64,000 nt of DNA, taken from the NCBI GenBank assembly GCA_022457155.1, contig JAJGOT010000056.1:1937501-2001500 (forward strand), read 5' to 3'. A model generated the notes under the pieces. That model ran no database searches and was not told where the DNA came from. It saw only the letters and a list, made by a program, of their open reading frames with translations. A program made the position numbers and the translations under genes. This stretch comes from Cladopsammia gracilis. Its lineage: Eukaryota; Cnidaria; Anthozoa; Scleractinia; Dendrophylliidae. Of the stretch, positions 29,301-59,968 are shown one piece after another. The first letter of the stretch is position 1. The number at the start of each line of letters is the position of its first letter.

Positions 29301-29494
29301 TTACAGTTCATCAGCCATTACAGGTACTCCACAATCGCATAAAACTTCATAAAGCTCCCCTACAGTAAGGTAACGCTTATTTGCAATATAACACAAGAGT
29401 GCATCGACTGGGTTCAAAGTACGTTTGTTAAGATAACGAATCTCTTCTGGACTCAAACCCAGTTTCTCAGCAACTATCATCCACTCATCTCCAC
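29301..29494 (-). CDS. Last exon of gene 2: Death domain
   Basis: It encodes [20 protein letters not shown], then [20 protein letters not shown] and a TAA. W-x2-VAEKLGLS-x2-EI and the spaced [10 protein letters not shown] are typical of Death-superfamily helices, as in MyD88- or UNC5-type adaptors. The TTGCAG acceptor gives phase 2, joining to ACT ACT G of the upstream exon. Confidence 0.78.
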
Positions 29495-32400: not shown

Positions 32401-35400
32401 AATCCTGAAGATCCCAAAACCCATATATTTAATTATTTCATCCTACTTGGCAAGAGACATATCTTTCTGCAAAAAATATAGCATGGACTCCCGAATCTCT
32501 CCCTTTTTTTGATTTTGTAAGAGATAGGATAATTGTGCAAAGATCAGTTTTATATTCTAAAGGCCAAAAAGCAGAGTTTTTTTTCTCTATGAAAGCCACT
32601 CATTTCTGTACTTTAAGATGTAATGTATAAACGTGTAACGCAAGTTTTGTATGTTTTAATGTTTTGTAATTTAATGTTAATTTGCAACGTGTTGTAAGTA
32701 AAATAGTAGTGGTATTGTGAGTACAGTATTTGTAAGCAGTGTTGTAAGTTATTGATAAATAAATTCGAAAAAAAAAATCAATCAAGAGCTCAGGTGGGCT
32801 TGACAAAGTACTCAATTTTTGTCTAGAACCAATTAGCATGAATTCAGTTTTAGCAGTGTTCAAAGTAAGTTTGTTAGAGATAAGCCACTTGTTTAGATTA
32901 TCCAAATCGTGATTCAGGTATAACTGTATTGAATTCACATTGGCGTCCGCATAAGTGATGTGAGTGTCATCAGCATACATTCTAGGCTGGCATGATGTTA
33001 GGCAGTTTGGCAAGTCGTTAATGTATATGAGAAATAAAAGGGGGCCCAGGATTGTTCCCTGCGGTACCCCACATTTAAGTGAACATATTTCAGAAAGAGA
33101 ACCATCGTTGTGTGCGATTAGTTAAATATGACGTAAACCAATCGAGAGCTATTCCTTATATTCCGTAAAGATTCATTTTGGATAAAAGGATATCATGGTC
33201 GACAGTATCGAATGCCCTTTTTAAATCAAGAAAAAACACAGCATTAACATTTCCACAGTAGATATCAAACGCCCAGTTATCAGTAGCTTCTAGAAGAGCA
33301 GTTACAGTTGAGTGTAATGAGCGAAAACCCGATTGCTATTTAGAAAGGATATTTTCAGTGATCAAAAAATTATACAATTGGTCATAAATAATCCTTTCAA
33401 ACACTTTAGCTATTACTGAAATGACTGAAATAGGCCGATAATTATTTAGATCAGATGGCTCACCTTGCTTAAACAACGGAGTAACTCTGGCACATTTCCA
33501 GTCATCAGGAAATATACCAGAGACTAAGGATTTATTAAATAGATCACATAGTGAAACTGAAATAAGATCAGCACATTTGCGTATTATTTTAGCAGAAATC
33601 CTTTCAACTCAGTTTGCAGGTCAATACATGCATTTGTAGGGGAATGGGCACCACCTTTGCCAGTCATGTGTTACTTTATAACAAACGACACACTCACCAG
33701 TAGTCCCAGCCGGTGTAATTTGTCTTAAGTGTTTGACCACATCAAGTCTGTTTGAACACTTAGCTTTCCTAGCCAAGCAGCGGATCAGTTGTTTGGTCCC
33801 AGGTTCTGGCTGTTCCAGAGAGGCTTGATCCAACTGGAGACTCTCTTTCAGTCGACAAACAACCTGTTTGGAATCACATGACTGGTCCAAAAAAGACTCC
33901 AAGACACCATCAGGAAGAGCTACCGTTTTTACCACATTTTCTTTGAAATAAATCAAATCAGTAGATTTAGAAGTGTTTAAAGTCACAGCATTGTCACGGT
34001 GTATCTTTCTGGACGAAAGACTGACATATACTAAGACGTATATTAACCCTGATATATACTTAAACTATACACCGTTCTAACGATCTTGCAATTTTCAAGC
34101 TTTCACAGCATTCGTTTCATTGTGAACTGTGTATTGAATATTAGGCACATTGACAATTATTTAACCGTCGTATAGTTACTAGCCGACTTGGGTTTAGTTC
34201 CCTGCTACACTAAAACAAAGTCGCTTGCCTGCGTGGATTCTCTGGAATACTCTACCGCATCAAAGGATGTTGGCAGAAGCTTACCTTCATCTAAAGAAAA
34301 AAGGCCCCCGTCACGTTCAACAACTGCTAGCTGCGAAAAAAAATAGGAACATCTTAACTGTCTTCTTTTAAATTACCCTCAGAAAAAGATTGCTCGCTGT
34401 AGTTAACTGTTGGGTAATCTATGACTTCAAAATTTCGGCATCAATTATATTACGATATTACGTTCCTTTTACGCTGCCAGTGCGGGTGATCGTAACATCA
34501 GGGACCCGTTACTTTCGTAAATTACTAAAAAAAAACATAAAAAAATATCTTTATTTATACACGGTTAAAAATATCGGTATTTACAATATAAAAAAGCAAT
34601 TCACTGTTTTACATATTTGCCGTGTGAGAGTCCGATAGGGAAAACCATTCACTGATACCTTTTTTAAAAAGGCTCAGTGATTGAGTTGTTATTAGTTCCT
34701 CTGGAAGGTTATTCCACAGGAAAGCTCCACTATAGCTAAAGCTTCGCTTTAGGTAGTCAGTTCTCGGCTTAGGTAATGCTAGTCTTTGTTTAGCGTCACG
34801 AAGATCATAAGACGTAAGTCTTGGTGTAAACATATCACAGAGATAAACTGGGGCAAGCTTATTAAGAGTGAATGTCACTAAAAATCAAAGATGATCATCA
34901 AAATCGCGGACACGGCTCAAAGTTCGATTTCCTTGATACTTTTTATATTGATACACTATTGTATCGTAGTAAACAAAACGGGGTTAGTTTGTTCTAATAT
35001 TCGCTTGTTTAAGAGTAATTAAATAAAAACCGTTGGGTCCGGATCGATTCAAATTTGCTTGTACGAAGGAACGAAATTTCGCATTGTTTATGGCGGTCTC
35101 GCTTAAGTGAAAAATAGACAGTAAATCTTTTATTGACATTATGTCATAGTTTAGTCCTTAGCAAATGTAACAAAGTTAAAAAAGGAATTTTTTTTCGTTT
35201 TACAGACAAGTTGTGAGCCTTTATTCGAAGCCACCTTGAAGCTTTTTTTGAATAGCTCTGAGGTGGCCTAAAATACATGCCATAAAACCCTGTCGGTACG
35301 TCAAAATAAATCCCCAGACTTTACTGTGGATACAGTTAAAAGATAGCTAATGTTAGTTTCGCTTTCATTTCCTTGGGATCTCTATTAGTTTTGCGCTGCG

Positions 35401-38400
35401 CCCTCCTTGAAGTTTCCTAATTTGACATATTTTCCGACGGCCGCCATATTGAAACTGTAACGCAAAGCATCCAAACAAAATATACACAGCTGTTAAAAAA
35501 TCATAAAAAATGGCTTGAAATCATAAATCCAAGTATGGTGCAGCTTTATAGAACGTTGTTTGTATCTTACGTTTAACATAACATAAATCGGAGCAAAGAA
35601 GTTTACACAACCCGGTGAACCGATGTAAAAGTGCTGCTTACACCGACCTTTAGAATTTCGCCGGCCGTGACTGAAACATCAACTACGTTCTGTTGAAACC
35701 GCCACCTACAGATTTCCTCTCTGCCAGTTCAAATCTTTTTGTTTCGCATTCTGGATCACATTATTTATGAAATCTTGTTTGAGGACTGCATTCACTGATC
35801 ACACAATAAGAATGAGTAATCAGCCTATATGCACTGTGAGGCCTCTGTGTAAATATTCCAGCGGTCACGTTCCTACAAAAATGTCAAAGTTCAATCTCAT
35901 TGATTACGACTCAAACAAAAAGACAATATAAATTCAATTTGTACCAAAAATTCGAATTGATACTGTTGTTTTTTTTTAATCGTGTCTGTAATGGTTACCT
36001 CCTTTGAAAGTTAGATATCTTGCTTCAAATCTGTTTATTTTTTTAGCTGGCTTGCGTGACACTGTAGCATTAGCACTGCCTATATTCCCTACTTGATTCA
36101 ATGCGAAAGATAGTAGTAAGTCCGTTGTAAATTTAGAACAACCAAAGAAACAAATAAAAGTCTCGTAAAAGGGAAATTGACATGAAAATGGTGAATACAA
36201 ACACTTAATTGGGTTGCGTTCAACGAGGAGTTGTTATCTCTTTTATAATTGAATTATGCACTGAAAGTGAAATGGAAAACATTTTGAGCTGTCAATTTTC
36301 TTTCATGTTTCCGGTATCAATTTGTTCGCTGCCTCAGTAAAACAGACAGTTTATGGATATTCGAATTTGAAGAATACGAACGTCTTACCAAATTAAAGAA
36401 TGGTCTTGGTCTCTTTTGGTCGGTGGAGAATGTGAACCGGGTTCAAGATAAAGGACTCAGTCGTGTGAGATTGTGCCTCTTGTATCATGCAGCAAGAATA
36501 TATCAAGCCACAAAAAGTTGCCAAAGTTTAGTTGCTGCGAAACCGAAGTTGAACTTATTTTAGCGCGAAGTGCCTGTATCCAAACGCCAGCAAACATCCA
36601 GGAAATAGTCACCTGTGCTCATCTGTCCTTTACTGACTGCGCAAGTTTGGGCATTGGCTGGCGGAGGTCTATTAGACTATAATAATATTAAAATGTCTTT
36701 ATTCTTGGATCAGATTCCGGAATTCCGGAATTTTTTTCAGAATTTTAGACATTGAAAATAATTTTAGAAAAATAGTAAAATTTGGTAGAATTTTAGAGAA
36801 ATATCAGCTTCCAGGTGACACCGCTGACCAACTTGAGGGCTCACCCTCACAGTAGTGTCTACAGTGCAGTTAATCAGCGGTTTCCCACTCAAATTATGCT
36901 TTGCACGTCTCTGTTCAGTCTGTTGGTAGCAAATATGGCTGATTCCAGTGAGCCAGCTCACGGTCAGAATTTTCGAGAATTTAAGACATTTTTGAAACAA
37001 TTTTAGAGCTTTTTTGGTTAAATTCCGGAAAGAATTTTAGCCCATTTCTCGAGAATTTTGTATCTAAGCCTACTTTATTCAATCGATGAACAAGGCTATG
37101 TAGTGCTTCACAGAAAACTTCGGAGCAAAGTGAAGACTCGAAGAAAACGCTGAACGGGGCTCTAGCTTGTGTCAGTCTAAATTCATATTATTGGAAGTTA
37201 CTAGACTCCAAACATGAGATTCTTCTAATTCTGAGAATTCATTCCAGATGGTATGGTTCAGGTAAATTTAAGTAGGTTTATTTTTAATTACTCGGAATGG
37301 TTGTGTCAGAGTCAAATACATAAACAAAATGGTTAACAAAACGTTTGGGCCCGCAGCCTCCAGTACGATGTCCACGTAAGGCCTTGGTGACGCGTGGACG
37401 GGATAGAAAGCCTGGACATTAGGCTGAAGTCCTGCCACCACCCACCCACGAACATACACACGTGAAATTGCCTGGACTGGACTAGAGTATTTAATTATAT
37501 GTGCGGTAATAAGACAATTTATTTTTTCGAAAAGAATAATGAACAGTATTGTAATGATCGTTTCCGGTTATTCCATTTCCGGTCATGCACGTGCATGTGA
37601 CGTGCATGTGGCGTAAGGCGCGACCCGCCTATAATGTGTGAGTTTACATTAACATAACGAGCAAGTAATTATTAGCATAGGGCAAGAAGTTGGGATCTTG
37701 TGTGTGTAGTCTTCGAGTCGAAATATACGATGTTTTAACCTATCTGCTGGCTGATTATTGACACGACACGACTCGACATGGTGTCAGGAGTTAGAGGAAA
37801 TTAGAGCGGACTGAAACACGTCGAAATCTCCGGCAAAAATCGCGTCGAAATATCTGCTTTTAGGCGGTTTAACACACCGAGCGAGCGGACATGGCTGCCA
37901 TGGGATTCAAAACCCCAGAGATGAATTGGGACGCGTCAGATTTGCGAGACGAATTGGCGAAATTCAAGCAATACTGTGATTTGATCTTCAGCGGTCCATA
38001 TTCAAAAAAGTCGGAGAAGGAACAAGCCTCATTCATTTTACTATGGATTGGCAGGCAAGGTTTAGAGACATTCAACAGTTGGGCATGGGAGAACGATGGA
38101 GACCGTTCAAAGCCAGCAGTAATTTGGGAGCGATTTGAGAGGCACGTGGCGCCGAAAGTAAACCACAGGTTAGCGAGATATCAGCTTCAACAACTCAGAC
38201 AGAAGAATGAAGAATTAATCGACGATTTCTTAACGCGTTGCCGAAATCAAGCTACGAAATGCAGGTTCAGAGACAAGGCCGAATCGGACGAGCGCCTGAT
38301 CGAACAACTAATAATTGGAAGTAAACACAAGAAAGTTCAAGAAAGATTACTGGAAAAAGGCGAAGAGCTTACCCTCGACGAAGCTATCGACATCGCCAGG

Positions 38401-41400
38401 ACGTACGAAGCCACAATTTCTCAAATGGAACAACTAGAAGGTGAAAGCAGCAAAGATATTCATGGGATCAAGGGCAACGACGACAATAAGCCAAAGAAAT
38501 GCCCCAACTGTGGACTCGAGCACCCCTTGAAGCCCAGAGAAAAATGCCCCGCCTATGGATCCGTATGTCTGAACTGTCAGAAAGACAACCACTGGGCAAG
38601 AGTTTGCCGTTCCAGGAACCAAGGAGGAACACGTGGAAGGTCTAGAAACAGAGGAAACACCAGATCTCGTCCTCGCTCTAGGAGCAGAGAGCGACGCGGC
38701 AGACGAAGATCCGCCAGTACCAACCGCAGAGATCAGAATGCAAGAGAGTTAAGTGATCAGTTTGAAACAATCACATTTGAATCAATCACCGTTGATGCTA
38801 CTGAGCCCCAAGCTCGACGTGCAGATGAAATCTTTGTAACTATAAACATTGATTTGGACACAACCAACAAACAACCAACAGCACTCAAAGCGAAGTTGGA
38901 TACAGGAGCCCAAGGAAACATCCTGCCCCTGAGACTGTTTCGTCGTATGTATCCTCAAAACATCACACCAGAAGGTTTTCCCAAGGCAGGAGTTCTCAAT
39001 CACTCACCTACAGTGCTTACGGCTTATGGAGGGACAAAGCTGGCTCAACATGGCAAATGCAGAATCCCTTGTGAATACAAAGGTAGAAAAGCGGTTGCAA
39101 CCTTCTACGTCACAGAAGCAAACGGTCCAGCTATCATTGGCCTACCTACGTCCCTCGAGCTCAACCTTGTCACCCTGAATTGCTCTGTTCAGCAAAGCTC
39201 ACCACAAAATGTCAACCACACGGCCGAGCAAGCTACACCCATCAAAAGCAAGGATGATTTGGTGCAAAGATATCCTGATTGCTTTGATGGTATTGGCAAG
39301 TTCCAAGGCCAATACCATATCACTGTAGATCCATCAGTACCCCCGGTTGTCCATGCCCAAAGGCGTGTGCCGCTAAGTCTACGTGATGACATCAAAGAGG
39401 AGCTGGACGACATGGAAGCTCGCGGCATAATCATGAAGATTAAAGAAGGCGAACCAACCGCCTGGGTTAACAGCCTAGTGTATCGCAGAAAGCCAAACGG
39501 CTCACTCAGAATATGCCTGGACCCCAAAGACCTCAACAAAGCCATTTCCAGAGAGCACCATGCGATTCCAACCATACCAGAGATCCTTCCAAAGCTAAAT
39601 GGAGCCAAATGCTTCTCCATACTGGATGCCAAATGTGGATATTGGAACGTTGAGTTAGACCAAGAATCAAGCTATCTGACAACCTTTAACTCACCATTAG
39701 GCCGCTACAGATTTCTTCGCATGCCATTCGGTCTCAAGATGTCACAGGACGTATTCCAAGCTAAGATAGATCAGACCTTCGAGGGCTGCGAAGGTACAGT
39801 AGGGATCGCTGATGACATAGTGGTTTTTGGAAAGTCAGAAGAGGAGCACGACCTTCACCTCACCGAGATGCTAGACAGATGTAGAACCACTGGGCTGAAG
39901 TTAAACCCAGACAAATGCAAGATTAAACAGAGGAAGATTAAATTCTATGGAGTCATATGTGGTGAAGAAGGAGTACAGCCAGACCCTGCCAAAGTTTCAG
40001 CCCTAAAGAACATGGCACCTCCTACTAGTAAACAACAGTTGCAGTCGTTCCTTGGTTTGGCAACATACATGGGCCCATTCATTTCAAGTCTCAGCACCTT
40101 GACAGCCCCCCTGCGAGAGCTAGTTAAAGATAACAGCATCTTTAATTGGAACCCTACACACCAACAAGCCTTTGAAGCAATCAAGAGTGCCATCAGTGCT
40201 GAAACTACTCTGGCATACTATGATCCAACTAAAGAAGTCACTCTTCAGGTTGATGCTTCAACGACAGGTCTTGGAGCTACCTTACTGCAGGATAAAAAGC
40301 CAATCGTTTTCGCCAGTAAAGCCTTAACGGACACTGAGTCGCGTTATGCCAACATAGAGCGAGAGCTACTAGCTGTGGTGTATGGATGCGAACGTTTTCA
40401 CACTTACCTGTACGGCCGAACCTTCATCGCAGAATCAGACCACAAACCATTAGAGGCGATCCAGTTAAAAAACCTCATCTCAGCACCCCCAAGGCTGCAA
40501 AGAATGCTCCTGCGATTACAGCCATACGACATTACTATCAAGTATAGGCCAGGCAAGCAAATGCAGATAGCCGATGCTCTCTCAAGGCTATCTCCTGAAG
40601 ATGTTGCTCCAATAGCTGATCTAAATGTGCAGATTCACGACATACGTCCACAATTCTCAGACAAGTGTTTGCAGAACATCCAGGCAGAAACAGCTAAAGA
40701 CCCTGAGCTTGCCACCCTCAAGGAAGTGGTGTACAACGGTTGGCCCTCCACAGTGAAAGAGCTTCCCGCACTCGTACGACCTTACTGGACTTATCGAGAA
40801 GAGCTATCGATTGAAAACAGTATGATTTTCAAGAGTAACCGAATTATTATCCCACAGTCACTCCAGGGAGAAATCTTATCCAAGCTACATGCCAGTCACC
40901 AAGGTACAGAGAAGACCAAGTTAAGAGCACGCACGTCAGTATTTTGGAGGAACTTGAACAAAGATATTGAAGAATTAACTAAGTCGTGTTCAAAATGCCA
41001 GGAACTGCAGTCCAAACAAGCAAGAGAACCCTTGCTGCAAACTGAAGTACCGCCAAGAGCCTGGCACACTATAGGAACTGACATCTTCTACCTTGACGAT
41101 GACGAATTTCTTTTGGTTGCGGATTACTACACCAAGTACCCGTTTGTCAGAAAAATTCCCAAGGGCCGCAGCACTAGCAAGTGTGTCGCAGAGCTGACCA
41201 AGCAGATCTTCAGTGAGCAGGGAATCCCTCGAATCGTGAGATCAGACAACGGTCCCCACTTTCAAGGTGACTACCGGCAGTTCGCGAAGGAGTATGGATT
41301 CCATCACGTGACAAGTTCCCCCAACTACCCGCGTAGTAACGGTTTCATTGAAAGCCAAGTTAAAGTCGTGAAAAGAGCTCTGAAGAAAGCAAAGGTGTCC

Positions 41401-47400: not shown

Positions 47401-50400
47401 ACTGTCATCCAAATCTCCTCGAAGCAACGATTCCGCTACAGCTGCTACCTCTTCGGGAACATTTGTAGTGGAGAAGTTAACGTCATCTTGGTTTTCTTCC
47501 GTTGGATCAGCTGATACATGGGGTTCGTGTCTGCTGAGGGTGGGTTTTGAATCCCTAGATGTTTGAATACGCACGGCATCTTTTGATGACTCGGTGGGCC
47601 TTGGTTCCCTTGGTACGTCGTTAACTTCAAAATCATAGCTATATTGATTTTCATCTGTATCTGTTTCCACTTTTGTGCTTTTTCTTTTCTCCTTTACACT
47701 ATCCACTATCTGCTTTCCCATTATCAAAGCTGTGTGATAATCACAGGAAATGTCTGCATCACAATTTTTGTCTTCATTTATCGTCCCTGTCCTCCACGTC
47801 TCTGTGGACACTTTGAAATGAGAAGGATCCACATCTATGCCAACAGTACTGTCTTCGTCCGGGTTGAAACAGATCCCTTTCAACGACTTCTTTAAGCTGG
47901 TCTTTCCTGCTCGGTCTTGTCCAATGAGCATTAACGGGAACCTCTTGACAGATGTTTCTCCATGAGAAATGGCTTTATTATAGGCTTCCAAAGCTGAAGG
48001 GCCCCTCGCAAGAATCTCTGGTGGAACTGTAAACGAGAACAATGATAAAAAAAAAAACGTGTGTTGTTATGCAATACATGTAGTATGTAGAGTTTCACAG
48101 ACACTTTTTTTTAAAATGAAATGATCTTATTAAAAGATCTAATATATGGTCATGTGTTCTTGGCCGGGTTGTTCAAAGCACGATTAAGCTAACCCAGGAT
48201 TAGCATTATTTTGATCCCAGTTAAATATCTACTCAATAGAAATAAAAAATTTTCCAAAGGTTTTCTGCCCTTCAGTTTCAACTTTGACTTGTCTTCACTT
48301 AAAACTAATAATAAGCATTTGAAAACACTTTTAAACAAGAGAAATGAAATCCTCAGTTAACTTTTAATCCTGGATTAGTGTCAATCGGCTGTCGAACAAC
48401 CGGGCGCTGGATAATTTGTTACTGTTCTGCACAAGATAGATTGTAAGGCAGGATAACATCGAACAGTCTTGCACGAACAACAGCAATCTTATAATTTGAC
48501 CAAACGAAGGTATTTTCTAAGAAAAGATCATGTTATAAAATAATATTTAATATATAAAATAAAAATAATATAAAATAATGTAATAAAACCATTAAAATAA
48601 TATTTTATTAATAATCTATTTAATCTTTGTTAGTTGAGGGTGATGGTTTTATTTCCGCATTAAAACAACATTGCATTATTCTTACTTGTTTTCGTCAATA
48701 CAGCTCTCGCCATTTCATGAAATACAGTCCCTTGCACTTCCTTTACAAACTCGAAAAACTCGGGTAGCTTCTTAACTATGTCTTCCGGTTCCCAGACCCC
48801 GCTACTGAATAAAGTGTCCCACTCATCGCAATGCAAGTGGACATCAGTCTACAAACAATGAGGACAGGGACTCGCTTTAGCAAGAGCAGCTCCCGGGAAG
48901 GGAGGTGGGGGGGGGGGGGGTACTCGTTATATTTCTGGGTGGTGGTAAGCCACTGAGACATTGAAAACCCATACCCTATACCAGACGATGTTCAGCCGAT
49001 TTTGCAACCCTATACTCTTGGCACCCAAAATCCTTGGCATATCCCAGGCTTGCTTTTTATAGAAACTCTATATCAGTTCATACCACTAATCAGTTTCCTG
49101 GTAAATGATACCATATTCCAGACCAAACCTCTTTGATTTCTATGCCCTATCCCTATAAACTGTTTTAGAACCATAGCCTTCGTAGCGGCACATACCTATA
49201 TAGTTTATATATGACAGTACCACCCCCCGCCCTCCCCCCCCCCCCCTCCTCGGGAGCAGCTTCAAAAAAAGTGTTCATGTTATCTGTGGTCATTTGTTGG
49301 TTATTTGTCTTTGCTTTTTGTTACATCTTCTGCCACCATGGGTAACCTCCTTTCATAACATAGAATTTATTCAGTAACTTTCTCAACTTTGATAAAATCC
49401 TTCTAATAGATTAATCAATGAAGTGAACTGTAGTCTCCAGACTTAACAAAATCGTCATTATTGGGAACTCTAAGTCTTGCATGTGACTTCGACAAACAGT
49501 GCCTTGCCCCATAGTGCCTTGCAATTGACACAGCACAGACACTTGCTCCTTCCTCCCTTTCTAATTTTCCCCATTAGCATTACAAGATTAAAAAGTACCG
49601 ATTCAATGGTTTCCTTGATTCCTAAGTTCCACGTGCGCTCCTCGGAGATGATGATAACAAATCCTTCATCAGTTGTGTACTCAGTTCGCTCAGAAAATCG
49701 CTTATGTATTAGATGAAACCCTTCAGGTATATCCTGTTCTGGTAAACGTAGTCCAAACGCATCTTCCTCTGTCAAAGTCAGTCCAGACAAGTACGTTAAC
49801 AAAGCATTTCGTACTTCTTCTTCCTGTGCAGCGTCTGTGGCCAGGGCGCTTTCTGTGGCAAGAATACCAACGCATTAACAATCGATTATTTTGATAAATA
49901 AATCACGCTGTTCTTTTTTTTCTTGGGCAAGTTGTCGTTTAAATGAAAGAGAGGGCATTATTCAACCAAAATCGCTCGGACCTAAATGTTTTTATTACGT
50001 ATATATTACCCTAAGTCATTGACATTTGGCAGACCCCGCAATCCAATTGATGGGCTGTTACTAATAATCGAATCTTTTTGGTTGTCTGATTGCCAGTGAT
50101 TGGCTAATAGGCAACGGTTGCGTGCGGTTATTCTTCAGCACAGTAGTTACTAGAAGGATGCCTGCGCATTCTCTAATCCTCTTGAGGATGCCTGAACTTT
50201 AGATTAACTCTCGTACATCACTTTATTAAGTTTTTTTTCCATTGGCAACTTTCAAGATCTTTTTTAAAAATATGTAATAGTTTAACATAACCTCTTACCT
50301 GTTCGCCCGCGAACGGTGAATCTGCAATCAAACTCACAACCAGGAAACAAAATGTCTGCTTGCAGATATTTCACGGATTTAAGAACCAGCCATCCTCGGC

Positions 50401-53400
50401 ACAGTGTCCGTGTTGCTTCGTCTTTAAAATGTATCTCCCCCAAGAGGTTCTTAATGTCACTTGGAATGTCATCAAATGTTCCTCTGAAGTTCTTATTTGC
50501 AACCCAAACCTAAATAAAATAAAGAGGAATTGTTCAGTCTATTCTACTTGTGTTTGGACTTAATAGTTACCTTTTATCGTATTCTCCATACGAGTAGATT
50601 GTGGTTAATCTAAAAAGGCCAGCGGACACTATTTTATTACCTACGACAACGGTTTTCGCGATAAAAAAAACCCCTTCACCTAAGTATGAACTAAATGAAT
50701 ATGAAACTAATATCAGAAATGCCAACCAGACACAAGCCACCTCAATTCACATCATGAATCTTTCCAGATTCTGAAGAGTCTGTTCGCCTGGGAATACGTG
50801 CATCAATGTGAAGTGTATTTCTTGGAATTGGTTAATCCTCGAATACTTCGTTTAAATTCTCAACATCAAGCCTTACCTTGCACCGTATTTGATGCATGCA
50901 TGGTGTTATAAATGTTAAATCATGTCTTGCAACATATGGAACATCCTCAGGTGTTTTTTCCTTGTAGTGTCCTCTAAAGATTCTCTTGTTGAGATCCACT
51001 CCTTCTTGAAACCTCAGTTTCCAGTAATGTTCTCCAGTTGGAGATTGAAACTTTGCTGTTGCCTCATCAACGCTCCATTCTCTTTCTTCAACTTTCTCTA
51101 AGAAAGATAACGTTTTTGTTAATTAGGAAAAAGAAATTTGCCGGCAACGCAAACTGGACACAACATCGGTAAAAGAACTTAAGATGATTCCTTAAGCCTG
51201 GTTTTCACTAGCGACGCAAGCACAAGCGCAAGCATAAGCGCAAGCATAAGCGCAAGCACAAGAGCCCTTATTTCGCCGTGAAAACGAGCTTGACGCAAGC
51301 ATAAGCACAAGCGCAAGCCGAGCACAAGGATCAAAATAGTTTGATTCTTGTGCTTGCGTCGCATGTGAAAACGGAACATAACACAAGCACAAGAAAAAAG
51401 CAGTGATTCTGATATGATTTTGAAGGAATGTTTGAACAAAAAAGGTTAGTTAAGAAAATCATCTTCGAAAGTCATTTGTGAGTTATTCACTTAGTTTGCT
51501 TGCCTTGATTGTACGAATCTTGCTGGTTACAAACCCCGTCGTTGCCATGAAAATTTTTCTTTTCATTTTCAAGCGAAAATAACATTATTTGAGCTGTCAG
51601 TCAATGAGTAAAACAAACAGATTCATGTTTTCCGTCACTCAAATGCACAAAACCTGGTTTTAACAATGATCAAATATTGCTTGTGAATATTTCGTTCTTA
51701 ATTGTGCTTGTGCTTGCGTTCGTTTTCACTTGTACAGAATTCTTATGCTTGCGCCTATGCTTGCGCTTGTGCTTGCGTCGCTAGTGAAAACCAGGCTTTA
51801 GTATTGCACTGCGCATCACTGCTGCGCATAACGTCTTCGTCATTAGCGAGCGTGAGCACGCACATAGTCTAAACCAGGAGGGTTTCCTTTGAGGATAAGT
51901 TAGTCAAATGAATAAGTGGCTGTTTCTTCCTTAATGAGCATGGTGACCTATCTTTTTTATTGCATAATTGTACTGTTAAAATCACCCTCTTTGAGTATTC
52001 GTCAGGAAATAAAGTTATCGCTAAAAACGCGTACACACTCATTACTCGTGCCCATAAAATTATTGACCTTGAGATCATGCACGAAAGGAGCGTTTTGAGT
52101 CAGTGTCATTTGAGGTTGCGTGCTTAGTAAATCATATATCAAATCGTTCCTTATGGTCGATGCATTGTATCTGTTACAGTTTTCCAGGCATTTTATTTTA
52201 ACTTTGCTTCAAGCTACCACATAAAGTAAAGTGAACCGATCAAATAATCGCGCGCGTGATAGGTAGTACTACATGGATAAATAGGTCAATTTTACTCCAT
52301 CGCAACTCTTTCGCGAGCATGGTGACCTTTGTTTTTTATTGCATTTTCGAAACAATTTCTGGTAGGGAATGAATCAGGGAAAGTTTTACAAAACTTGTTC
52401 GTCAACTTTTATTTCTGAGGAATCACCTTAACACATAACACTGACATAAGACAATACTGTCACAAAAAACACAGCAACAAAATAAAGTAAAAGTCGACAT
52501 AACTTAGTACAAGTCAATCAAAATTCAACACAGGGCTTTTGCTAGTAATGACAGCAAGCAGCGCGTAAGATGTTACAGCCGGAATTTTCAAGCAATTTCC
52601 ATTTTTTTTTCTAAGTCAAAGTACCGGATTTTTTATGTCCAGGAAACGGGCGCTCTGGACGTTAGGTCCAGCGTCCAACCTCAAACGAAAACCCTGTTAA
52701 CACAACCCTACCTTCGCGTGGGACCCGAACAATAGCGCTTCCAAAGTGGCACCGCATGTCGACCTCTGGATTTGCTCCCATTTCATGTTTGATCATTTGC
52801 AGGGTAATCAAGACATCCTTCGTGAGCAGTAGCTGGTAGCTTGAGTAACTTTCAGAACTGCAAGATTCCTAAAACATAACATAAACAACATAAAACGATT
52901 ATCAAACTTATCACATGAAACAATTTTTGACTACAATCAGCATAAAGCTGCTTCCATGTATATGCGGTTTAAAGAACACAGTTTTCGCTTACGCTTCGTT
53001 TTACGCTTTAGTGCTATCCAATAATGTGCCTTAATAGCAGAAGACAATTGCAGCCATTTTATAAGGCAGCAAACCACCCATTACTAGATGGAGTGGGTAG
53101 ATCTTATCTACATGTACTTACTATTCAATCGCACTTTATCAATTTCACCCTTTTACTTTAAAAGCTCCATTTATATGGTATATTTCATGAGCGACCTTGA
53201 TATTTAATTTGATAGGAGTGGCACAATAAGTTTTGTTATATAGCTGTAGTTTTTCTCAATACAACGCGTGCGTTGATTGGTTGATTCATGGTCACATGAC
53301 ATCTAACAAACAAACTGTTTCACGCCAATTGTCCTAAGCGGGCAACATTTGCGAAAGCGGGAAACAATTTTGATGTCAGAGGGTAACATTGCACTTCAGT

Positions 53401-56400
53401 CTTCGCAATTGTAAAACCGCCGTTGTCGTTTCATAGGGTTAGTAAGAGCATGCATAGTAGCCACAACAACAAATATGCTTACGTGTGGTTCATTTTCCTT
53501 TGCTGGTTTCAATCGGTACTGTACATGGGATCCGACAGGATGACCATTGCAATCCTCCTGCGGCACCTGCCTCAGTTTGAGTTTAGTGTCTGAAAGATTC
53601 CACCCATCGATGTAGCGACTAACTTTGTTGGAATCATGTTCCACACCCCTAATTCTTCCATCCGACTGAAAAAAAGGTGAGATTAGTTAGTAAAAGCAAC
53701 TATCGCTGCTGGCAAACGGCAGTGGTTTCTTATTCTAAAAAAGAAAACGCATATTAATTAAGCATGCTAAGACCCCAATAACAAATAATTTAAGTCCCCC
53801 AGCTGGGTCCCAATACCAAATGATGACTAAACATGCAGTCTGATTCCATGTCCTCTTATTTTTGCTATGCGTGGGAAGAATCGATTGATACGTGAAATCT
53901 GCTATGTTTCCCTGAGAATAGAGTTATAATGCTGAAAGGAAAGCAGTTTTTCTTTCTTTTTTTTTTGAGGGCTTACGCAATTTCGAAAAAGGTTATCACT
54001 GACTTAGCTACTAGCTTTAACTAAGAGAAATCAAAGCCTCATATTTGAGCGACCCATCTTTACAATCAAAGGTTCCTCAGTGAGCCAACTTGTGAATTTG
54101 AAACGCTCTAAATGAAAGATTCTACACCAAATGTGCAGAGGCTATGAGTACGACCCGAGGGCAGTACTTCGGTATTTATTTTGTGAATAGAAGATATTAA
54201 GTTCCGTAAAGGAGCATCAAAGGATTTTGCGTTACCCGATGGTGAATTCAAATTGACTATTTCATCGAGTCAGATCTCGAGTCTGCGATGGGAAAAGAAC
54301 CCTTTATACAAATGTTGTTGAAGGAAGATGCTATGTAAGCGATTCCCCGCAGATTATTCAACACAAAACTCTTATTATGAGCTTGGGTTGCCCTGTCAAA
54401 ACTTGTACAGCAACAAAGCTAATATTACGTCAAGCTAAAAATATACCAAATATTAGTCGTGGACATCATAATAACTGCCCGGTAATTTTGAAACAACATA
54501 TTGGTAGCCACGAACGACCGCCCAAGAGTGAAGTTGTACTATTTTGACATGATAAGATAAGCACTGCAAGAGTCGCACGGAAGATTTGGTACGCCTAAAT
54601 TGGCCTTAAAACCTGCACAGGTGGTTGTTGGGTGTCCCTGCGGAATTTGCTTTCCACTTTAAGCAACAATCCGTTATATCCGAGGTTTCAAAATCACCAA
54701 CTACGAGCCCTTACAAATAAAATCGTTCGCTTTATCGGCACTAAGTAAACCGATTTCGTCCAGTCAAAATACACCTTATGTTTCATACCTTGCATAGTTA
54801 CAACGCAACTACTGTGTCAAGCTAGAAATATAACAGATATCTCAAACTGTTAGTTGCATCATCTTCTTGTGCTCTGTTTATTCCTTTTCCTGTTTTTGTA
54901 CAATTACATCAAGCTTAAAATATACCACACGCCGCAAACTGCCTACGACATCACCCGATCTTGCTGCGAAGCTAGTCTCTAGGGAATTACAAACTTGTGC
55001 CGAAGGGTAACGGAAAAACACGAATATATACCGAGTATCAAAATTGTCCAAAATCATACCCCTCAGTAACTAAGGGCCATCATGTTACCTGATACCCATC
55101 GTTAAAAATGGCATGTGTGGCTTCAAATTGCAGTTTTTGGTAGACATACTGCATATTAAGGGTTTAATAAAACGATTTGGCAAAATAATCTAGGTCATTC
55201 GATCATACATACTTATTAGTAGAGACTTAAAGGGCCGGTTATTTAAACGAAGTTTAGAAGGTGTTTGACAAAACGCGGTCTGAACCAATTGCAATCTAGC
55301 CAGCCCTAGTATTGAACCGTTGCTCACTGTAAACAGTGTCAAGAAGGCATGTAGTACAGACTAGAAAAACATAAACAGATGAAGAGGTCCATTGATTGTC
55401 TTTTAAGAAAACCACGGTATAAGGTTCACTTCGTTTAAATAACCGGCCTAAAACGTCCTAATTTGGATCACATTTAACGAAAAACAAAAACACAAAAAAA
55501 AACGTTTACCCACCACTGCAATTCCGATTAATGCTTGTGCATTTTTTCTTTGTTCGTCAGTTCCACAGGTTATATAAACTTCTCCATTCTTATAATAAAT
55601 AACTTTTGCTCCTGTCTGGGCGCTAATTTCTCGAAGTTTTGCTCCTCGTGTCCCCATTACTAATCCTTTGTACTTGTCTGGAATTATCACTTGTTCCCAC
55701 ATTGTACTTTTTACATTTTGCTAGATAGATAGAAAGAAAGAAAGAAAGAAAGAAAGATACAAACAAACAACTTTAAATGTATCTAATGTGATGTCACAGT
55801 CGTTATTAAAACATGAACAGCAAGTAATACATTTATCAGTGACCATCCCCGGTGAGGTGGGGTATGGGTGATGGTGGGGGTTGGGGAGGTGACCCCTGCA
55901 GAGTTGAGCCTGGCACTAAGGGGATTAGCCACATTTGGAATTTTCTGAAAGATATATTAATATATTGATTTTGTAAATTATTTATTTATTTGATCGAAGA
56001 AGGTTATTTTAGCATAGAGAAAATTAACCTGATTCTAATCGTTCCTCCATAGTCTTAACACTATAATTTTTACAACTACTTTGCTCAACACTGACAACCG
56101 CCAGATGAGAAAAAAGATTGAAAACTACCAGTACCATAACGAATGCAGAGGAACTCAAGTTATTATAAACAAATAACTGTAGAACTATAAATCCATTCCG
56201 TTCTTCAATTCCCCTTCCGTTAACGAACACAGCCTTTTAACTGAACGTACGTTCACAACGGAAACAACGGTAGTTCTCTTGTGTTAACCCAGCCCACCTA
56301 CCCGGGACAGACAATATACAGTAAAGAAATGATCTTCATCATATCAAAGAGGTTAATCATCTAAATACATGCTCGTAAGCTAGAGCCAAACTCCAGAAAC

Positions 56401-57365
56401 TTTGAAAGCACACCAGACAACACGTCGCAAACATAAAACTACAGTAGGGAGTCTGTGTAGGCCTGTCACGTTTTTATGACCTTTACGAGAATCAAGATAG
56501 AATGGTTTTTGGCCTACGGTCGAACCCCTATTAAGCGGCCACCCTTGGAGAACTGGCAAGTGGCCGCTTAATAGGGGTTCGTCAGAAAATAGCATAATGC
56601 GTGGTATGAACGTCACTTTATTTGAATACAACACAGTTGGAGGACTGTTGAACGTAATACAGCCTGTGTTCTGACTGTAAATTCAAGTTCGTAATTTCAG
56701 TCTGATGGACAGTTATCGACGTTCAAATTTGACACGCTCTAAACTTTATTTATATGCTGATTACCATATGTTGTTTACACAAATCAAAATATAGTACATT
56801 ACTTGACTCTCATCTGTCATCATGTTATTCAAAACGATGCCAGCTGCGTGTATTAAATTTTAAGATGGCCGCTTAATAGGGGTAAAAACAATAAGAAAAC
56901 CCTCATCGGGACCGCCAAAAGGTGGCCGCGGTCGCTTAATAGGGGTTTTATTTACAGTATTATACTGACAATAAATTTCGGACTTTGATAACTGGCCGCT
57001 TAACAGGGGGTGGCCGCTTAATAGGGGTTCGACTGTATAACTGAGTGTAAATGTCTTGTATTTATGACTGGTACATAGAAAAGTTAAATCATGTATTTTT
57101 AAGAATTATTTCATATGCATGTCATTTTTATTTACAACTTACCACTTTTTCTTCGATAAGCCTTATAGCGCATGCTCTTTGCTCCTTATCGCCGCTTACT
57201 GTGAACCCACTCTGTGAACTAACTTTTGCTCCCGACTTTTGCATAATTTCATGTAGCATACAGCCACCCTTTCCAATCACGTGACTCTTCAATTCTCTTG
57301 GGACCACTACAAACTCACTCTCCATTTCTTCTTCACTTTGCTCCTTGATACTGTAGTAAGCCAGT
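29301..57365 (-). CDS. Gene 2: KH-KH-unknown region-Roc-COR-Death protein (5' exon not visible)
   Basis: Exons in transcript order are 57365-57143, 55720-55514, 53665-53483, 52868-52712, 51097-50877, 50509-50299, 49852-49599, 48848-48686, 48026-45718, 34330-34285, 33940-33698 and 29494-29301. After one leading base they read 1,470 codons without a stop until the TAA. In visible residues, KH1 has GKGG at 31-34 and KH2 GTRG at 97-100. The unrecognised region shared with gene 1 spans about 144-539. Roc has GQDRAGKT at 575-582, DFAGQ at 758-762 and THAD at 857-860. COR follows to about 1300, and Death-type sequence occupies 1310-1469. Roc-COR proteins are GTP-dependent signalling switches, Death domains bind partners in immune or cell-death pathways, and KH domains bind RNA. 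A combined RNA-sensing role is inference. The link across the 11.4-kb intron to the Death exons rests on matching phases and domain logic. A first coding exon ending in phase 2, as in gene 1, should lie beyond 64 kb. Confidence 0.78.
29636..30146. mobile_element. Harbinger-like TIR element, TAA target duplication
   Basis: GGCCCCGTCCACACGTAT at the left is mirrored by ATAGGTGTGGACGGGGCC at the right. TAA flanks both sides (29633-29635, 30147-30149). Multiple TCCGCAACTTTTTTGTTG subterminal repeats lie in both orientations. It is non-coding, in an intron of gene 2. Confidence 0.8.
31683..31869. mobile_element. Small TIR element inside LINE B, AT target duplication
   Basis: The ends AGACCTCATTCGCTTGGGCG and CGCCCAAGCGAATAAGGTCT mirror each other. 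Removing the element and one AT copy restores the LINE reading frame ([11 protein letters not shown]), so the insertion boundaries are well defined. An AT target duplication is typical of ISL2EU/Harbinger-like elements. Confidence 0.75.
32060..32776 (+). mobile_element. 5'-truncated L1-like LINE inserted in LINE B
   Basis: The plus-strand reading holds the C-terminal zinc motif [17 protein letters not shown] (C-x2-C-x7-H-x4-C) and WIEVIRWWN, typical of L1/Tx1-type LINEs. It ends with AATAAATTCG and an A-run. The 9-bp sequence ATCAATCAA flanks it (32051-32059, 32777-32785). Removing it with one copy restores the host LINE frame (ELLIDNIP). Confidence 0.85.
33698..34330 (-). CDS. Two Death-region exons of gene 2 (34330-34285 and 33940-33698)
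   Basis: The 46-bp exon encodes [15 protein letters not shown]; the 243-bp exon continues [29 protein letters not shown] and [12 protein letters not shown]. The L-x2[18 protein letters not shown] pattern resembles the last helices of a Death domain. Acceptors (CGCAG, TTCAAAG) and donors (GTAAGC, GTGAGT) fit, and phases join to the Roc-COR exon upstream and the last exon downstream. Confidence 0.65.
37550..37778 (+). repeat. 5' LTR of the Gypsy element
   Basis: 229 bp, TG...CA ends, with GCACGTGCATGTGACGTGCA (E-box/CRE-like palindromic repeats) near the start. It should act as promoter for the element; the transcription start is not determined. Confidence 0.92.
37891..41559 (+). CDS. Gypsy gag-pol polyprotein (1,222 aa)
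   Basis: Order by residue: gag-like N-terminus (about 1-190); Cys/His knuckles [20 protein letters not shown] and [14 protein letters not shown] (about 205-240), then an Arg/Ser-rich stretch; aspartic protease DTGA at about 337-340; reverse transcriptase with [15 protein letters not shown] and IADD at about 639-642; RNase H VDAST at about 787; and integrase with an H-H-C-C zinc site ([16 protein letters not shown]) near 1000-1050. Integrase catalytic residues are D near 1064, D near 1119 and E near 1154. Start: ATG at 37891, in frame with gag. The frame stops at the end of the integrase core; the C-terminal piece is in another frame. Confidence 0.93.
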   Translation: MAAMGFKTPEMNWDASDLRDELAKFKQYCDLIFSGPYSKKSEKEQASFILLWIGRQGLETFNSWAWENDGDRSKPAVIWERFERHVAPKVNHRLARYQLQQLRQKNEELIDDFLTRCRNQATKCRFRDKAESDERLIEQLIIGSKHKKVQERLLEKGEELTLDEAIDIARTYEATISQMEQLEGESSKDIHGIKGNDDNKPKKCPNCGLEHPLKPREKCPAYGSVCLNCQKDNHWARVCRSRNQGGTRGRSRNRGNTRSRPRSRSRERRGRRRSASTNRRDQNARELSDQFETITFESITVDATEPQARRADEIFVTINIDLDTTNKQPTALKAKLDTGAQGNILPLRLFRRMYPQNITPEGFPKAGVLNHSPTVLTAYGGTKLAQHGKCRIPCEYKGRKAVATFYVTEANGPAIIGLPTSLELNLVTLNCSVQQSSPQNVNHTAEQATPIKSKDDLVQRYPDCFDGIGKFQGQYHITVDPSVPPVVHAQRRVPLSLRDDIKEELDDMEARGIIMKIKEGEPTAWVNSLVYRRKPNGSLRICLDPKDLNKAISREHHAIPTIPEILPKLNGAKCFSILDAKCGYWNVELDQESSYLTTFNSPLGRYRFLRMPFGLKMSQDVFQAKIDQTFEGCEGTVGIADDIVVFGKSEEEHDLHLTEMLDRCRTTGLKLNPDKCKIKQRKIKFYGVICGEEGVQPDPAKVSALKNMAPPTSKQQLQSFLGLATYMGPFISSLSTLTAPLRELVKDNSIFNWNPTHQQAFEAIKSAISAETTLAYYDPTKEVTLQVDASTTGLGATLLQDKKPIVFASKALTDTESRYANIERELLAVVYGCERFHTYLYGRTFIAESDHKPLEAIQLKNLISAPPRLQRMLLRLQPYDITIKYRPGKQMQIADALSRLSPEDVAPIADLNVQIHDIRPQFSDKCLQNIQAETAKDPELATLKEVVYNGWPSTVKELPALVRPYWTYREELSIENSMIFKSNRIIIPQSLQGEILSKLHASHQGTEKTKLRARTSVFWRNLNKDIEELTKSCSKCQELQSKQAREPLLQTEVPPRAWHTIGTDIFYLDDDEFLLVADYYTKYPFVRKIPKGRSTSKCVAELTKQIFSEQGIPRIVRSDNGPHFQGDYRQFAKEYGFHHVTSSPNYPRSNGFIESQVKVVKRALKKAKVSNVDPNMALLCLRATPIDNKIPSPAELLFGRQVQDNLPRKIQSDQASDDVIKR
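41560..42040 (+). CDS. Integrase C-terminal part of the Gypsy element, shifted frame
   Basis: This +1-shifted frame (open from 41447) carries [20 protein letters not shown] and [11 protein letters not shown], typical of the integrase C-terminus (the 'GERV-x-N' and 'W-x-PA-V' signature). A Pro/Ser-rich tail ends [17 protein letters not shown]. Either a programmed shift or, more likely, a small deletion with frameshift separates it from pol. The inverted copy has the same arrangement. Confidence 0.75.
42288..42516 (+). repeat. 3' LTR of the Gypsy element
   Basis: Same 229-bp sequence as the 5' LTR with no difference noticed. It directly follows the polypurine tract. Confidence 0.92.
42568..43030 (+). 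pseudogene. Decayed gene remnant in element X
   Basis: The reading starts [12 protein letters not shown], hits a stop, then [20 protein letters not shown] and [11 protein letters not shown]. After a frameshift it reads [20 protein letters not shown], and in a third frame MLREICQYL. This fits the C-terminus of repeat-encoded proteins I associate with cnidarian genomes (memory only). The mirrored copy is at 58979-59441 on the minus strand. Confidence 0.5.
44602..45717. other. Intron stretch: LINE A upstream half and Roc-COR exon flank
   Basis: The minus-strand LINE occupies up to about 45430. A G-run lies at about 45434-45445. The remaining 270 bp before the Roc-COR donor include the alternative stop at 45634-45636 and nothing else recognisable. 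Confidence 0.6.
45718..48026 (-). CDS. Roc-COR exon of gene 2
   Basis: A single 2.3-kb exon of 769 codons plus two bases, much longer than its neighbours. It carries the GTPase P-loop ([15 protein letters not shown]), switch II DFAGQ, THAD guanine motif, then COR sequence such as [13 protein letters not shown] and LVVDP-like [13 protein letters not shown]. Near its end is a Cys/His cluster ([17 protein letters not shown], then C-x4-C-x-H). About 130 acidic, Ser/Thr-rich residues are inserted between the P-loop and DFAGQ. The donor CAG|GTGAAT gives phase 0. If unspliced, the frame continues 26 codons to a stop at 45634-45636, a possible alternative short form. Confidence 0.88.
48163..48405. 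mobile_element. MITE-like TIR element in a gene 2 intron
   Basis: GCCGGGTTGTTCAAAGCACG and CTAACCCAGGATTAG on the left are mirrored by CTAATCCAGGATT and GGCTGTCGAACAACCGGGC on the right. It is AT-rich inside and non-coding. Confidence 0.7.
48891..49255. mobile_element. TIR element bounded by G and C runs, GCAGC target duplication
   Basis: The left end is TCCCGGGAAGGGAGG plus a G-run and GTACTCG. The right end mirrors it with GTACCACC, C-runs and CTCCTCGGGA. GCAGC flanks both sides (48886-48890, 49256-49260). It starts 43 bp upstream, in transcript sense, of the 48848-48686 exon acceptor. Build and size resemble the 28.15-kb element. Confidence 0.75.
51195..51797. mobile_element. 603-bp TIR element with GCAAGCACAAGC subrepeats, TTA target duplication
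   Basis: The ends AGCCTGGTTTTCACTAGCGA and TCGCTAGTGAAAACCAGGCT mirror each other. TTA flanks both sides (51192-51194, 51798-51800). Subterminal arrays of AAGCGCAAGCATAAG-type units lie in opposite orientation at each end. A 3-bp TTA target suggests PIF/Harbinger. Confidence 0.82.
51801..52711. other. Gene 2 intron, no gene recognised
   Basis: AT-rich sequence. GAGCATGGTGACCT followed by TTTTTTATTGCAT occurs near 51936 and again near 52316 (GAGCATGGTGACCTTTG), hinting at an old duplication. Nothing else is supported. Confidence 0.45.
53666..55230. other. Gene 2 intron, no gene recognised
   Basis: AT-rich, with some similar phrases (TCAAGCTAAAAATATACC near 54430, TCAAGCTAGAAATATAAC near 54817, TCAAGCTTAAAATATACC near 54909) that suggest a decayed repeat. 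No open frame or RNA gene is supported. Confidence 0.5.
55231..55450. mobile_element. MITE-like TIR element, about 220 bp
   Basis: GGGCCGGTTATTTAAACGAAG at the left is mirrored by CTTCGTTTAAATAACCGGCC at the right. It is non-coding and ends 64 bp from the KH2 exon donor of gene 2. Confidence 0.75.
55514..55720 (-). CDS. KH2 exon of gene 2
   Basis: It encodes [29 protein letters not shown] and [13 protein letters not shown]. The acceptor TAG lies in a short GATA/GAAA microsatellite on the plus strand. The donor is GTG|GTGGGT, chosen because it keeps phase 0 into the next exon. Overlapping alternatives shift the frame. Confidence 0.82.
55722..55757. repeat. GATA/GAAA microsatellite next to the KH2 acceptor
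   Basis: TAGATAGATAGAAAGAAAGAAAG on plus becomes a pyrimidine-rich tract on minus. It provides the polypyrimidine stretch and TAG acceptor of the gene 2 KH2 exon. Confidence 0.8.
56517..57035. mobile_element. Pogo/mariner-like TIR element, TA target duplication
   Basis: The left CGGTCGAACCCCTATTAAGC and right GCTTAATAGGGGTTCGACTG mirror each other, with TA outside both ends. TGGCCGCTTAATAGGGG recurs internally at least five times in both orientations. No transposase is seen. Confidence 0.75.
57143..57365 (-). CDS. KH1 exon of gene 2
   Basis: It encodes [20 protein letters not shown], then [20 protein letters not shown]. Length (223 bp) and phase match the gene 1 KH1 exon. Its acceptor AG is only 47 bp from the end of an inserted transposon copy, so little of the original upstream intron is visible. 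Confidence 0.88.
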
Positions 57366-58978
57366 CTGAGAAGTATAAACAAAACCAAAGGAATATTGGG
57401 TAAGATTTTAAGAGTGAATGTCACTAAGGACCATCGATATCTCGGACACAGCTCAAAATTCAATTTCGCTCATACTTTGTATATTGGTAGGCCTAAGTAC
57501 GACACATATGAAAGGGAGGTTTATTTACTGAAATATTATTTCGTTTATGAGAAATTAATATTAAACCGTTAACGGTATTTTTCGTAAACAAAGCTTGCAA
57601 AATTGTCAACATTCACGACTTTGCCGGGTCGGTTAATCGCAATTTTTGAAGCATTTTTGCACAAATCCTAATCGTTTAGTGCCTCATTAGTTCAACGAGT
57701 GTAGTGACAGTTTAATAACTCCGTTTTAAATTTTTTCCTGATTTTTTTAAGAAGTGCACCCGCGACTTCCCTGAAAAGTGCTCGTCGGTACCTCTAACAA
57801 ACAAACCAAAAATGCCCGCGGTACGTATCAAATCTCACCAGAAAACCTCACGAGCCACGTTAAAGGATGGCTTTCAATTTTTGCCGTTTCATTTCTTTGG
57901 GATCTTTTTTACTTTTCCGACAAAACAATCCTAAAGTGAGCATATTTTCGCTATCCGCCATTTTGAAATTTGCAGCAGGTCAGACAGTTGAACTGGACGA
58001 TTCTGTTGAACTGTTATGCTACGCAGCCGTCAGTGGCATACTTTTGCTCTATCTATCAAACGTAAATCGCCTTTGTGTTTCTTTTATAAAAAAATACAAT
58101 CAGTAATAAGAGAAAGTCTAGTGTGAAGTTGAACTTAATGATATTAAAACAGAGCCGTTGGGCAAAGGTCATTGCAAACATTAACATCAAATAGCTTTGC
58201 GGTGACTAACCTCACTCAACAGTCCGCTTGGCTGCCGTAGATTTGAATCCACACAGTTTGAGTTGATTGCTTTTTTCCTTTACATTATCCATGAAACGCT
58301 TCTGTCTTTGCGAGCAAAACTTTGTCTTATGTTTCGGCCTTGAATATAAATAATATTTCACCAACACAGTAACGTAATACGATATTTCAAAAGGTCCCAT
58401 CTGTCACGCAATACAGAGCACAAATGATTTATTTCCAGCCTGGAGATGGGTAAAAATTTAAAAATACGTTTAAATGTCAAGGATGAAATTTATTGATGAA
58501 CTCTTATTTTCCCCAGTGTCATGCAGCTCTTCGTGCGAATTAATTTCACCAAAACTGCTTTGCATTTTCGCACCTGGCACGGGCTTCACATTTGCCATGT
58601 GCTCCTGCATTTGCTTAGTGTTAATAAAGAAGGCCATTTTTCTGACTTGCCCACAAGGCGAGCTTAGTCGAGCGCGGAGCGCGATCGAACGAGCGCAAAA
58701 CTCGAGCGCGAGGCTAAGCGAGCGCGTAGCGTGAGAGAATGTTCACTAACCCCAATGCTATACTCCCGAGCCACCAGCACCACCACCAGCTTCCCGCGGC
58801 AATACTAATGACATGTAGAAAATCAGGAGCCCATAACCCTGGGTATGGGCTCCTAAGAAAATCAAAAACCAGATTGCAGCTATAATACTTGTACTGATTT
58901 GAACAAACAAATAACTTTTTTAGTAATAATTATGCTATAGTAAACTAGCAGTCCTTCTGTTTCTTGAAAAATGATTCC

Positions 58979-59441
58979 CGCTAGAAACATACTAGATACT
59001 GGCAAATCTCCCTCAGCATGGCTACCGATAAGGTCGATACCCTTTTCGTGGCACTAAATTACAGATGTTGCGGGATAGGACTAGGGTGTCGTAAAGCAAT
59101 TTCCTCTTCGACAACTGCATGGAGCCTTCAATGCAAAGATTCAACTTTAACCGGATTATTCTGATCGTCGTCGTCGCTCTAGATTCTTCGTGCTGCGTCA
59201 ATGACTCTTCTGAATCTTTGCGGCCAGTCGAGAGAAGAAACCTGTCACTTGTTGTGGCGAAATAACATCTTCCCAAAAATCGAAAAATCGAGCCCCCGAT
59301 TCTGACCCCTGACTCGGACACTTCTTTTGAATCGGCCTTATTCCAGCTTTCTTCTCCAATAACAAATTGTTCTGTAAGAAATTTCTTTTGTTCCTCAGTG
59401 ATCTAAGTTCGCCTCTTCGTTGCTTTTAGCGCCCATTCCAT
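58979..59441 (-). pseudogene. Decayed gene remnant in the second copy of element X
   Basis: Mirror image of the remnant at 42568-43030 with the same stop and frameshifts. Confidence 0.5.
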
Positions 59442-59492
59442 CTCAAGTGGCCAATGTAAGTCCGCAACTGTACTATTTTCCGTATCTATACT

Positions 59493-59721: not shown

Positions 59722-59968
59722 TCCCCCTTTTTCCGAAAAGCTAATACCTGAGTGATATTTTAACACTAGCAATTATAATTAAAGTGTGAAATAACAAACT
59801 AGTATAGATCAAGAACTAAACAGCTCTGCTGAGTCCGGTAGGGATACACCCTGATAAAGTGTTCCTCTGACTTAGAACTATAAGAAATGTTCTTAGCAAT
59901 GTTCCTCTAAGCAATGACCTAATAATGTTCATCTGAAGAAGAAAGAAAACAAACAAGACAAAAATGTT

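Follow-up and report, generated by a model that had tools for sequence, protein, structure and literature searches.

A stony-coral gene that joins tandem KH domains and a predicted triphosphate-tunnel barrel to a Roc-COR-Death body

A 64,000-nucleotide (nt) stretch of the stony coral Cladopsammia gracilis (contig JAJGOT010000056.1, positions 1,937,501 to 2,001,500; this whole stretch is called the window) carries on its minus strand a gene, here gene A, that joins in one chain two KH domains, a region first left nameless (X), a Roc GTPase, COR, a helical domain and a Death domain, in this order. The reading of these parts as one gene is confirmed, as judged from sequence and from models, and X is, in the predicted structure of a relative, a Cet1/RESC-like triphosphate-tunnel barrel. 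With a probability of roughly 0.45, gene A would encode a Roc-COR GTPase/Death switch that is triggered by RNA 5′ ends and belongs to a shuffling coral conflict family. The gene was rebuilt from stop-to-stop frames and splice-site scores, using generic splice weights, and the joined exons were then refined against relatives. The result is a gene of 13 exons between 57365 and 29301, with GT/AG ends and compatible phases at all junctions:

57143..57365, minus strand, exon 1: KH1 with the GKGG loop, ATG at 57325
55514..55720, minus strand, exon 2: KH2 with the GTRG loop
53483..53665, minus strand, exon 3: start of the barrel region X
52712..52868, minus strand, exon 4: X, first barrel strand DMRCHFG
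50877..51097, minus strand, exon 5: X, predicted tunnel residues R, D and K (sites 340, 342 and 356 of the relative P0011)
50299..50509, minus strand, exon 6: X, predicted tunnel residues (P0011 sites 397, 411, 420, 422 and 426)
49599..49852, minus strand, exon 7: X, alternative donor at 49584
48686..48848, minus strand, exon 8: X, last strand DVHLHC and C-terminal helices
45718..48026, minus strand, exon 9: Roc GTPase and COR within one exon
34285..34330, minus strand, exon 10: linker, 46 nt
33698..33940, minus strand, exon 11: helical domain with PAGTTG at its end, modelled as five helices in the relative P0171
30707..30784, minus strand, exon 12: putative first helix of the Death fold
29301..29494, minus strand, exon 13: remaining Death domain and stop

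A preliminary description of this DNA had joined twelve exons in one frame of 1,470 codons. All twelve stand, on the minus strand with GT/AG ends and matching phases; their count does not, since a thirteenth exon (30784-30707) had been overlooked, and with this exon added and the end of exon 7 moved the chain is corrected to 1,482 amino acids (1,487 with the alternative exon 7 donor). The end of exon 7 at 49599 is the more likely one by comparison with relatives. The added exon has a CAG acceptor, a GT donor and phase 1/1, fits between exons 11 and 13 and is matched in tblastn by P0003 at 63% and by P0006 at 69%; its translation, aligned with seven relatives, closes in LTIALSG. Comparison with the P0171 model suggests that it encodes the first helix of the Death fold, while the Pfam Death match begins 3′ of it either way and is not extended by it. 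The Roc part of the P0171 model is poor, mostly with a pLDDT under 50, P0171 apparently being without the start of Roc, and a search with this model gave no separate fold match for the helical domain of exon 11. At the other end of the gene, the frame upstream of the ATG in exon 1 stays open and an earlier exon is possible.

On the 12-exon chain, KH_1 (in two stretches), Roc, COR-A and Death exceeded the Pfam cut-offs, which bears out the tandem N-terminal KH domains, the Roc-COR module with its nucleotide motifs and the C-terminal Death domain of the preliminary description. The KH domains are of type I (KH_1 E value 1.7e-20 on the whole chain) with the two glycine-rich loops listed above, and the relative P0011 matches KH folds in a structure search. 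The Roc domain has a P-loop, DxxGQ and a (T/N)KxD-like motif with COR directly after it, and the Death domain is of the six-helix death-fold kind. What had been called a DAPK1-type combination is only loosely so. Roc-COR is common to DAPK1, to LRRK and to bacterial Roco proteins, and DAPK1 likewise has a C-terminal Death domain, but gene A lacks a kinase and leucine-rich repeats (LRR), its head is KH-KH-barrel, and the proteins most akin to it are coral Roco proteins that bear different heads. No kinase domain, SF2 helicase or RIG-I C-terminal RNA-binding domain was matched by Pfam in the 1,461-residue chain at E values up to 10.

Outside the KH part, X had no significant sequence match in Pfam, NCBIfam or PDB (one listing holding the best 60 of 72 matches), and a pattern for X found 27 stretches in prokaryote contigs and 15 in viral contigs, none of them a relative by tblastn. 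Its assignment to the Cet1-like tunnel beta-barrels comes from the predicted structure of a relative, and the idea of an RNA trigger is strengthened by this Cet1/RESC-like fold. The conservation of X, numbered here as in P0011, was read from an alignment of 32 relatives. R422 and D420 never vary, and R340, D342, K356, R395, R397, R426, R481 and R485 hardly do. Strongly conserved charged or histidine sites of the predicted strands lie on one alternating face in 22 of 24 cases, compared with a random expectation of 17.6 (P 0.005, with thresholds picked after inspection of the data). At 19 sites gene A agrees with P0011 at 17, having R for W271 and L for R395. X has six conserved basic residues (R340, K356, R397, R422, R481 and R485), which may answer to the basic positions K311, R359, R402 and R424 of RESC2. 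Weighing against a conserved ligand tunnel, the DxHxH strand is lost in the paralogues P0006 and P0191, and P0006 has Q at 481. An SLS1-like head, brought to mind by a beta-rich region that comes after KH-KH (SLS1 is a fungal protein with KH and a beta-barrel), was considered and set aside: SLS1_C reached only an E value of 0.15, below the cut-off, in one of eight members, and the fold search gave Cet1/RESC.

A barrel of this fold could also be an active RNA 5′-triphosphatase or another tunnel phosphohydrolase, in which case the protein would be an effector that modifies RNA ends and Roc-COR-Death would set where and when. The Cet1-like fold itself speaks for such an enzyme, as do the tunnel acids and histidines that are kept (D269 in 30/31 sequences, D420 in 32/32, D518 in 27/28 and H520 in 28/29). 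However, the first strand DMWCHFG (DMRCHFG in gene A) and the last strand DLHLHC stand, by strand order and without superposition, where Cet1 has the pair E305/E307 and E496, and they do not show the Cet1 ExE pattern. According to the article on the RESC proteins, which also gives these Cet1 residues, RESC proteins that lost two of the three acids are inferred to be inactive (PMC10201420). By strand order, the barrel resembles a binding protein more than an enzyme; given the acids and histidines that are kept, catalysis is unlikely but conceivable. In comparison with the Cet1/Pct1 triphosphatases, the metal-binding glutamate pattern of X looks largely replaced, and X is coupled not to capping but to KH and Roco-Death. 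In trypanosome RNA editing, RESC1-RESC2 is an obligate domain-swapped dimer to which X has about 10% identity; RESC2 binds 5′-triphosphate and RESC1 does not, and the X of gene A could resemble either. KH, Roc, COR or Death are not reported for RESC1-RESC2 in the parts of that article consulted (PMC10201420).

The evidence that head and body form one gene comes from relatives and from the junctions. Protein searches covered 10 of 10 matches for the joined 12-exon chain, the best 120 of 522 for the search that fed the alignment and the best 120 of 1238 for the body. The joined chain matched nine coral proteins over 70-100% of the query, with 44-56% identity and E values of 0 to 1.9e-291, which argues that it did not arise by chance; the tenth match was a distant LRR-Roc-COR protein. 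X and Roc-COR occur on one predicted chain in at least 12 full-core database proteins of six stony-coral species (Oculina patagonica, Stylophora pistillata, Orbicella faveolata, Montipora foliosa, M. capricornis and Acropora palmata), of which 9 are annotated with KH, 12 with COR-A and 11 with Roc. Seven of the X-bearing proteins have the Death-tail pattern and P0217 has Death by alignment; since the pattern is found in only 7 of 12, some predicted chains are incomplete. These relatives are gene predictions, not RNA evidence. In the search that fed the alignment, 39 rows had E values up to 4.5e-75 and the next row had 1.3e-25; 32 of the 39 were aligned, and the 24 that carry a name all come from stony corals. 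Little can be made of absence from other cnidarians, because the searches detect only relatives that share exact words. The preliminary description had proposed that the domain combination was undescribed and could be sought in other proteomes, and it does recur on one chain in several stony corals. A KH-X head on a Roco-Death body was not described in the literature searched, which comprised titles and the beginnings of abstracts with subscription journals mostly outside. The novelty would thus lie in the kind of head, the Roco-Death body itself being already known.

If head and Roc-COR-Death body were two separate genes, the joined chain would be a prediction artefact both here and in the relatives. 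The long introns filled with transposons are compatible with this explanation, and many database rows among the matches listed are body-only or head-only, although these may be truncated models. The two critical junctions of gene A (48686/48026 and 45718/34330), however, are GT/AG, phase-matched and in frame at the sequence level, and the same X-Roc junction sequence (...FVKEVQ...PPEILARG and variants) was found by pattern in 13 of 14 relatives, P0008 being the miss. Exons 9 and 10 are separated by an intron of 11,387 nt that contains the following element:

34862..44601, no strand assigned: transposon of 9,740 nt; both ends carry TTAA and share an 18-nt terminal repeat

This transposon sits inside a long interspersed element (LINE) and itself contains a long terminal repeat (LTR) element. 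The minus-strand halves of the LINE, at 44935-44602 and 34860-34615, flank it and correspond to successive segments of a further LINE copy within the window (31710-31204) with 48% identity over 52 residues and 47% over 68. Because one LINE brackets the insertion, the flanks of exons 9 and 10 look like old neighbours, and the intron without the transposon would measure only about 1.6 kb. The two-gene explanation is very unlikely.

The body of gene A belongs to a stony-coral family in which, by sequence comparison, a single exon boundary is the point where one Roc-COR-Death body meets many different heads. The figures for this family come from the best 120 of the 1,238 matches to the body of P0004. 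In a set of 54 rows with a long core, gene A included, the core is preceded by 0 to 953 residues, and 46 of the 54 end in the same LY...AD tail pattern. The coral Roco proteins with other heads have the same Roc-COR core (46-59% identity) and mostly the same tail as gene A, but a different N-terminal head. All seven that were scanned carry a head before Roc, namely SH3+SH2, kinase+OSR1_C, Cullin, PDZ, GT4-conflict, HEPN and GT4-conflict+TRADD-like_N; precomputed domain lists add TPR heads among the matches listed. Five of nine non-KH heads join by pattern at the same P(P/H)EI(L/R)ARG start, the other four giving no match. In the window this start is formed by the first codons of exon 9, which is where other coral Roco proteins also have their head-body junction. 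A tree of 52 Roc-COR cores (a quick method, with head labels assigned by hand from precomputed domain lists and P0138 and P0204 excluded) requires one change for KH-X when rows with known heads are considered and three when the 16 rows in which no head was recognised are counted. KH-X proteins come from robust as well as complex corals, and the fusion therefore looks old. In a tree of the heads, fused and stand-alone forms are intermixed with 8 changes; because short stand-alone rows may be truncated models, and P0015 in fact runs into the Roc-COR start, this tree is silent on how often the fusion arose.

Two further observations concern this family. The Stylophora pistillata protein P0009 (LOC111344458) is a head-X Roco model with GT4-conflict at residues 1133-1493, in place of the Death tail; it is either a real C-terminal swap or, as the N-terminal place of GT4 in P0206 and P0218 suggests, two adjacent gene models run together, and it was not used as evidence. 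Numerous body-only proteins without names, some 720-840 residues long (ena, jgi and lgn rows within P0131-P0243) look like the single large coral Roc-COR exon called as one open frame in environmental or assembled contigs.

A second copy of the head, gene B, lies downstream of gene A on the same strand:

15913..25147, minus strand: gene B, KH-KH-X head only, 8 exons (24925-25147, 23583-23804, 20456-20638, 20017-20179, 19313-19536, 18317-18536, 17026-17285 and 15913-16071)

It is open in all exons and ends in a stop at 15915-15913 followed by AATAAA; a start codon was not found. A tblastn search detected no Roc-COR exon for it elsewhere in the window, though one may lie beyond. Its nearest relatives are P0012 of Porites evermanni and P0011 of Oculina (66% identity each), and it agrees with P0011 at all 19 sites at which gene A agrees at 17. 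Between the heads of genes A and B, nonsynonymous divergence (dN) is 0.35 and synonymous divergence (dS) 1.17, giving a dN/dS of about 0.3, which suggests that the protein is under constraint. This ratio bears on whether gene A is a decaying paralogue whose frame is still open, whose expression has been lost and which fresh transposons have broken. One intron holds a 9.7 kb insertion, and an inverted copy of identical sequence starts some 40 nt before exon 1; both would fit such a history, but thirteen open exons with GT/AG ends, the intact P-loop and KH loop motifs and the constraint between the heads make decay hardly likely at all.

Gene B bears as well on the nature of the RNA that the head would bind. 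The head could recognise particular mRNAs or small RNAs of the coral itself, with Roc-COR-Death as a scaffold for ribonucleoprotein assembly or stress signalling rather than for immunity. KH domains like those of FUBP, Nova, hnRNP K and IGF2BP, together with stand-alone head proteins, of which gene B is apparently one, are consistent with such a regulator. The kin of the body, in contrast, bear GT4-conflict, TRADD-like_N and HEPN heads and come in many divergent copies in the style of a conflict family, which makes a regulator of own RNA unlikely, though still worth weighing. The coral Roco family shares with the TRADD-N/GT4 conflict proteins of marine invertebrates a lineage-specific expansion in which constant regions go with variable domains (PMC8195603), and its member P0218 bears GT4-conflict and TRADD-like_N in front of Roc-COR-Death. 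In the text available from that study, no Roco or KH-barrel members are described and the word Roco appears once, in a reference title (PMC8195603). An immune role is favoured for gene A because its kin carry conflict-type heads.

As an RNA-5′-end-triggered switch, gene A would work as follows. The KH domains would hold single-stranded RNA, and the barrel X would take up its 5′-triphosphate end without cutting it. Ligand binding might then release or dimerise Roc-COR, or shift its nucleotide state, so that the Death domain could recruit Death-domain partners and nucleate a signalling complex; the outcome would be an immune or cell-death signal against cap-less RNA. To the gene structure, kinship, predicted barrel fold of a relative, conserved one-faced charges and head exchange obtained from the analysis, the biology of RESC2, Roco and Death-domain proteins would thus add the 5′-triphosphate ligand, lack of catalysis, GTP-controlled dimerisation, Death signalling and antiviral role. 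To our knowledge, a RESC/Cet1 barrel acting as a receptor head, and not as a capping or editing part, would be the first case in metazoans.

How cnidarians, and corals especially, detect RNA viruses is a largely open question. RIG-I-like receptors sense foreign RNA ends and signal via death-fold domains, a job like that proposed for gene A but done with unrelated parts. In Nematostella, these receptors cluster with MDA5, and a RIG-I agonist reportedly gave no significant antiviral-type response (PMC8476169). This leaves room for another cnidarian 5′-end sensor, although Nematostella is not a coral and the result is only suggestive. It is conceivable, if doubtful, that a separate class of cytosolic receptors for uncapped 5′-triphosphate RNA exists in stony corals, in which two KH domains and a RESC2-like tunnel on Roc-COR-Death would fill the niche of RIG-I with unrelated parts and heads would be swapped by exon shuffling. 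The KH-KH-tunnel head on a Roco-Death body offers a concrete, purifiable candidate for a missing 5′-end sensor, and the coral Roco family, with one body, many heads and one exon boundary, a natural laboratory for the assembly of signalling receptors.

The mobile elements around genes A and B have further features. An inverted pair, 38009-44601 and 57408-64000, shows 100% identity over 6,593 nt and reaches the window end; its second copy is the one that starts upstream of exon 1. As both copies open with the same TTAA terminal repeat, the pair would be either a very recent second insertion or an assembly artefact. The LTR element inside the TTAA transposon (37550-42516) has identical 229-nt direct repeats and, by eye, a gag-pol-like frame on the plus strand at 37873-41559; the portion of it that lies within the inverted pair is also found in the second copy, and the transposon apparently carries the retrotransposon along. 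Also by eye, a minus-strand LINE reverse-transcriptase relic occupies 33608-31204, where an intron parts exons 11 and 12 of gene A, and several minus-strand frames at 23130-21430, in an intron of gene B, resemble a broken transposon-type gene.
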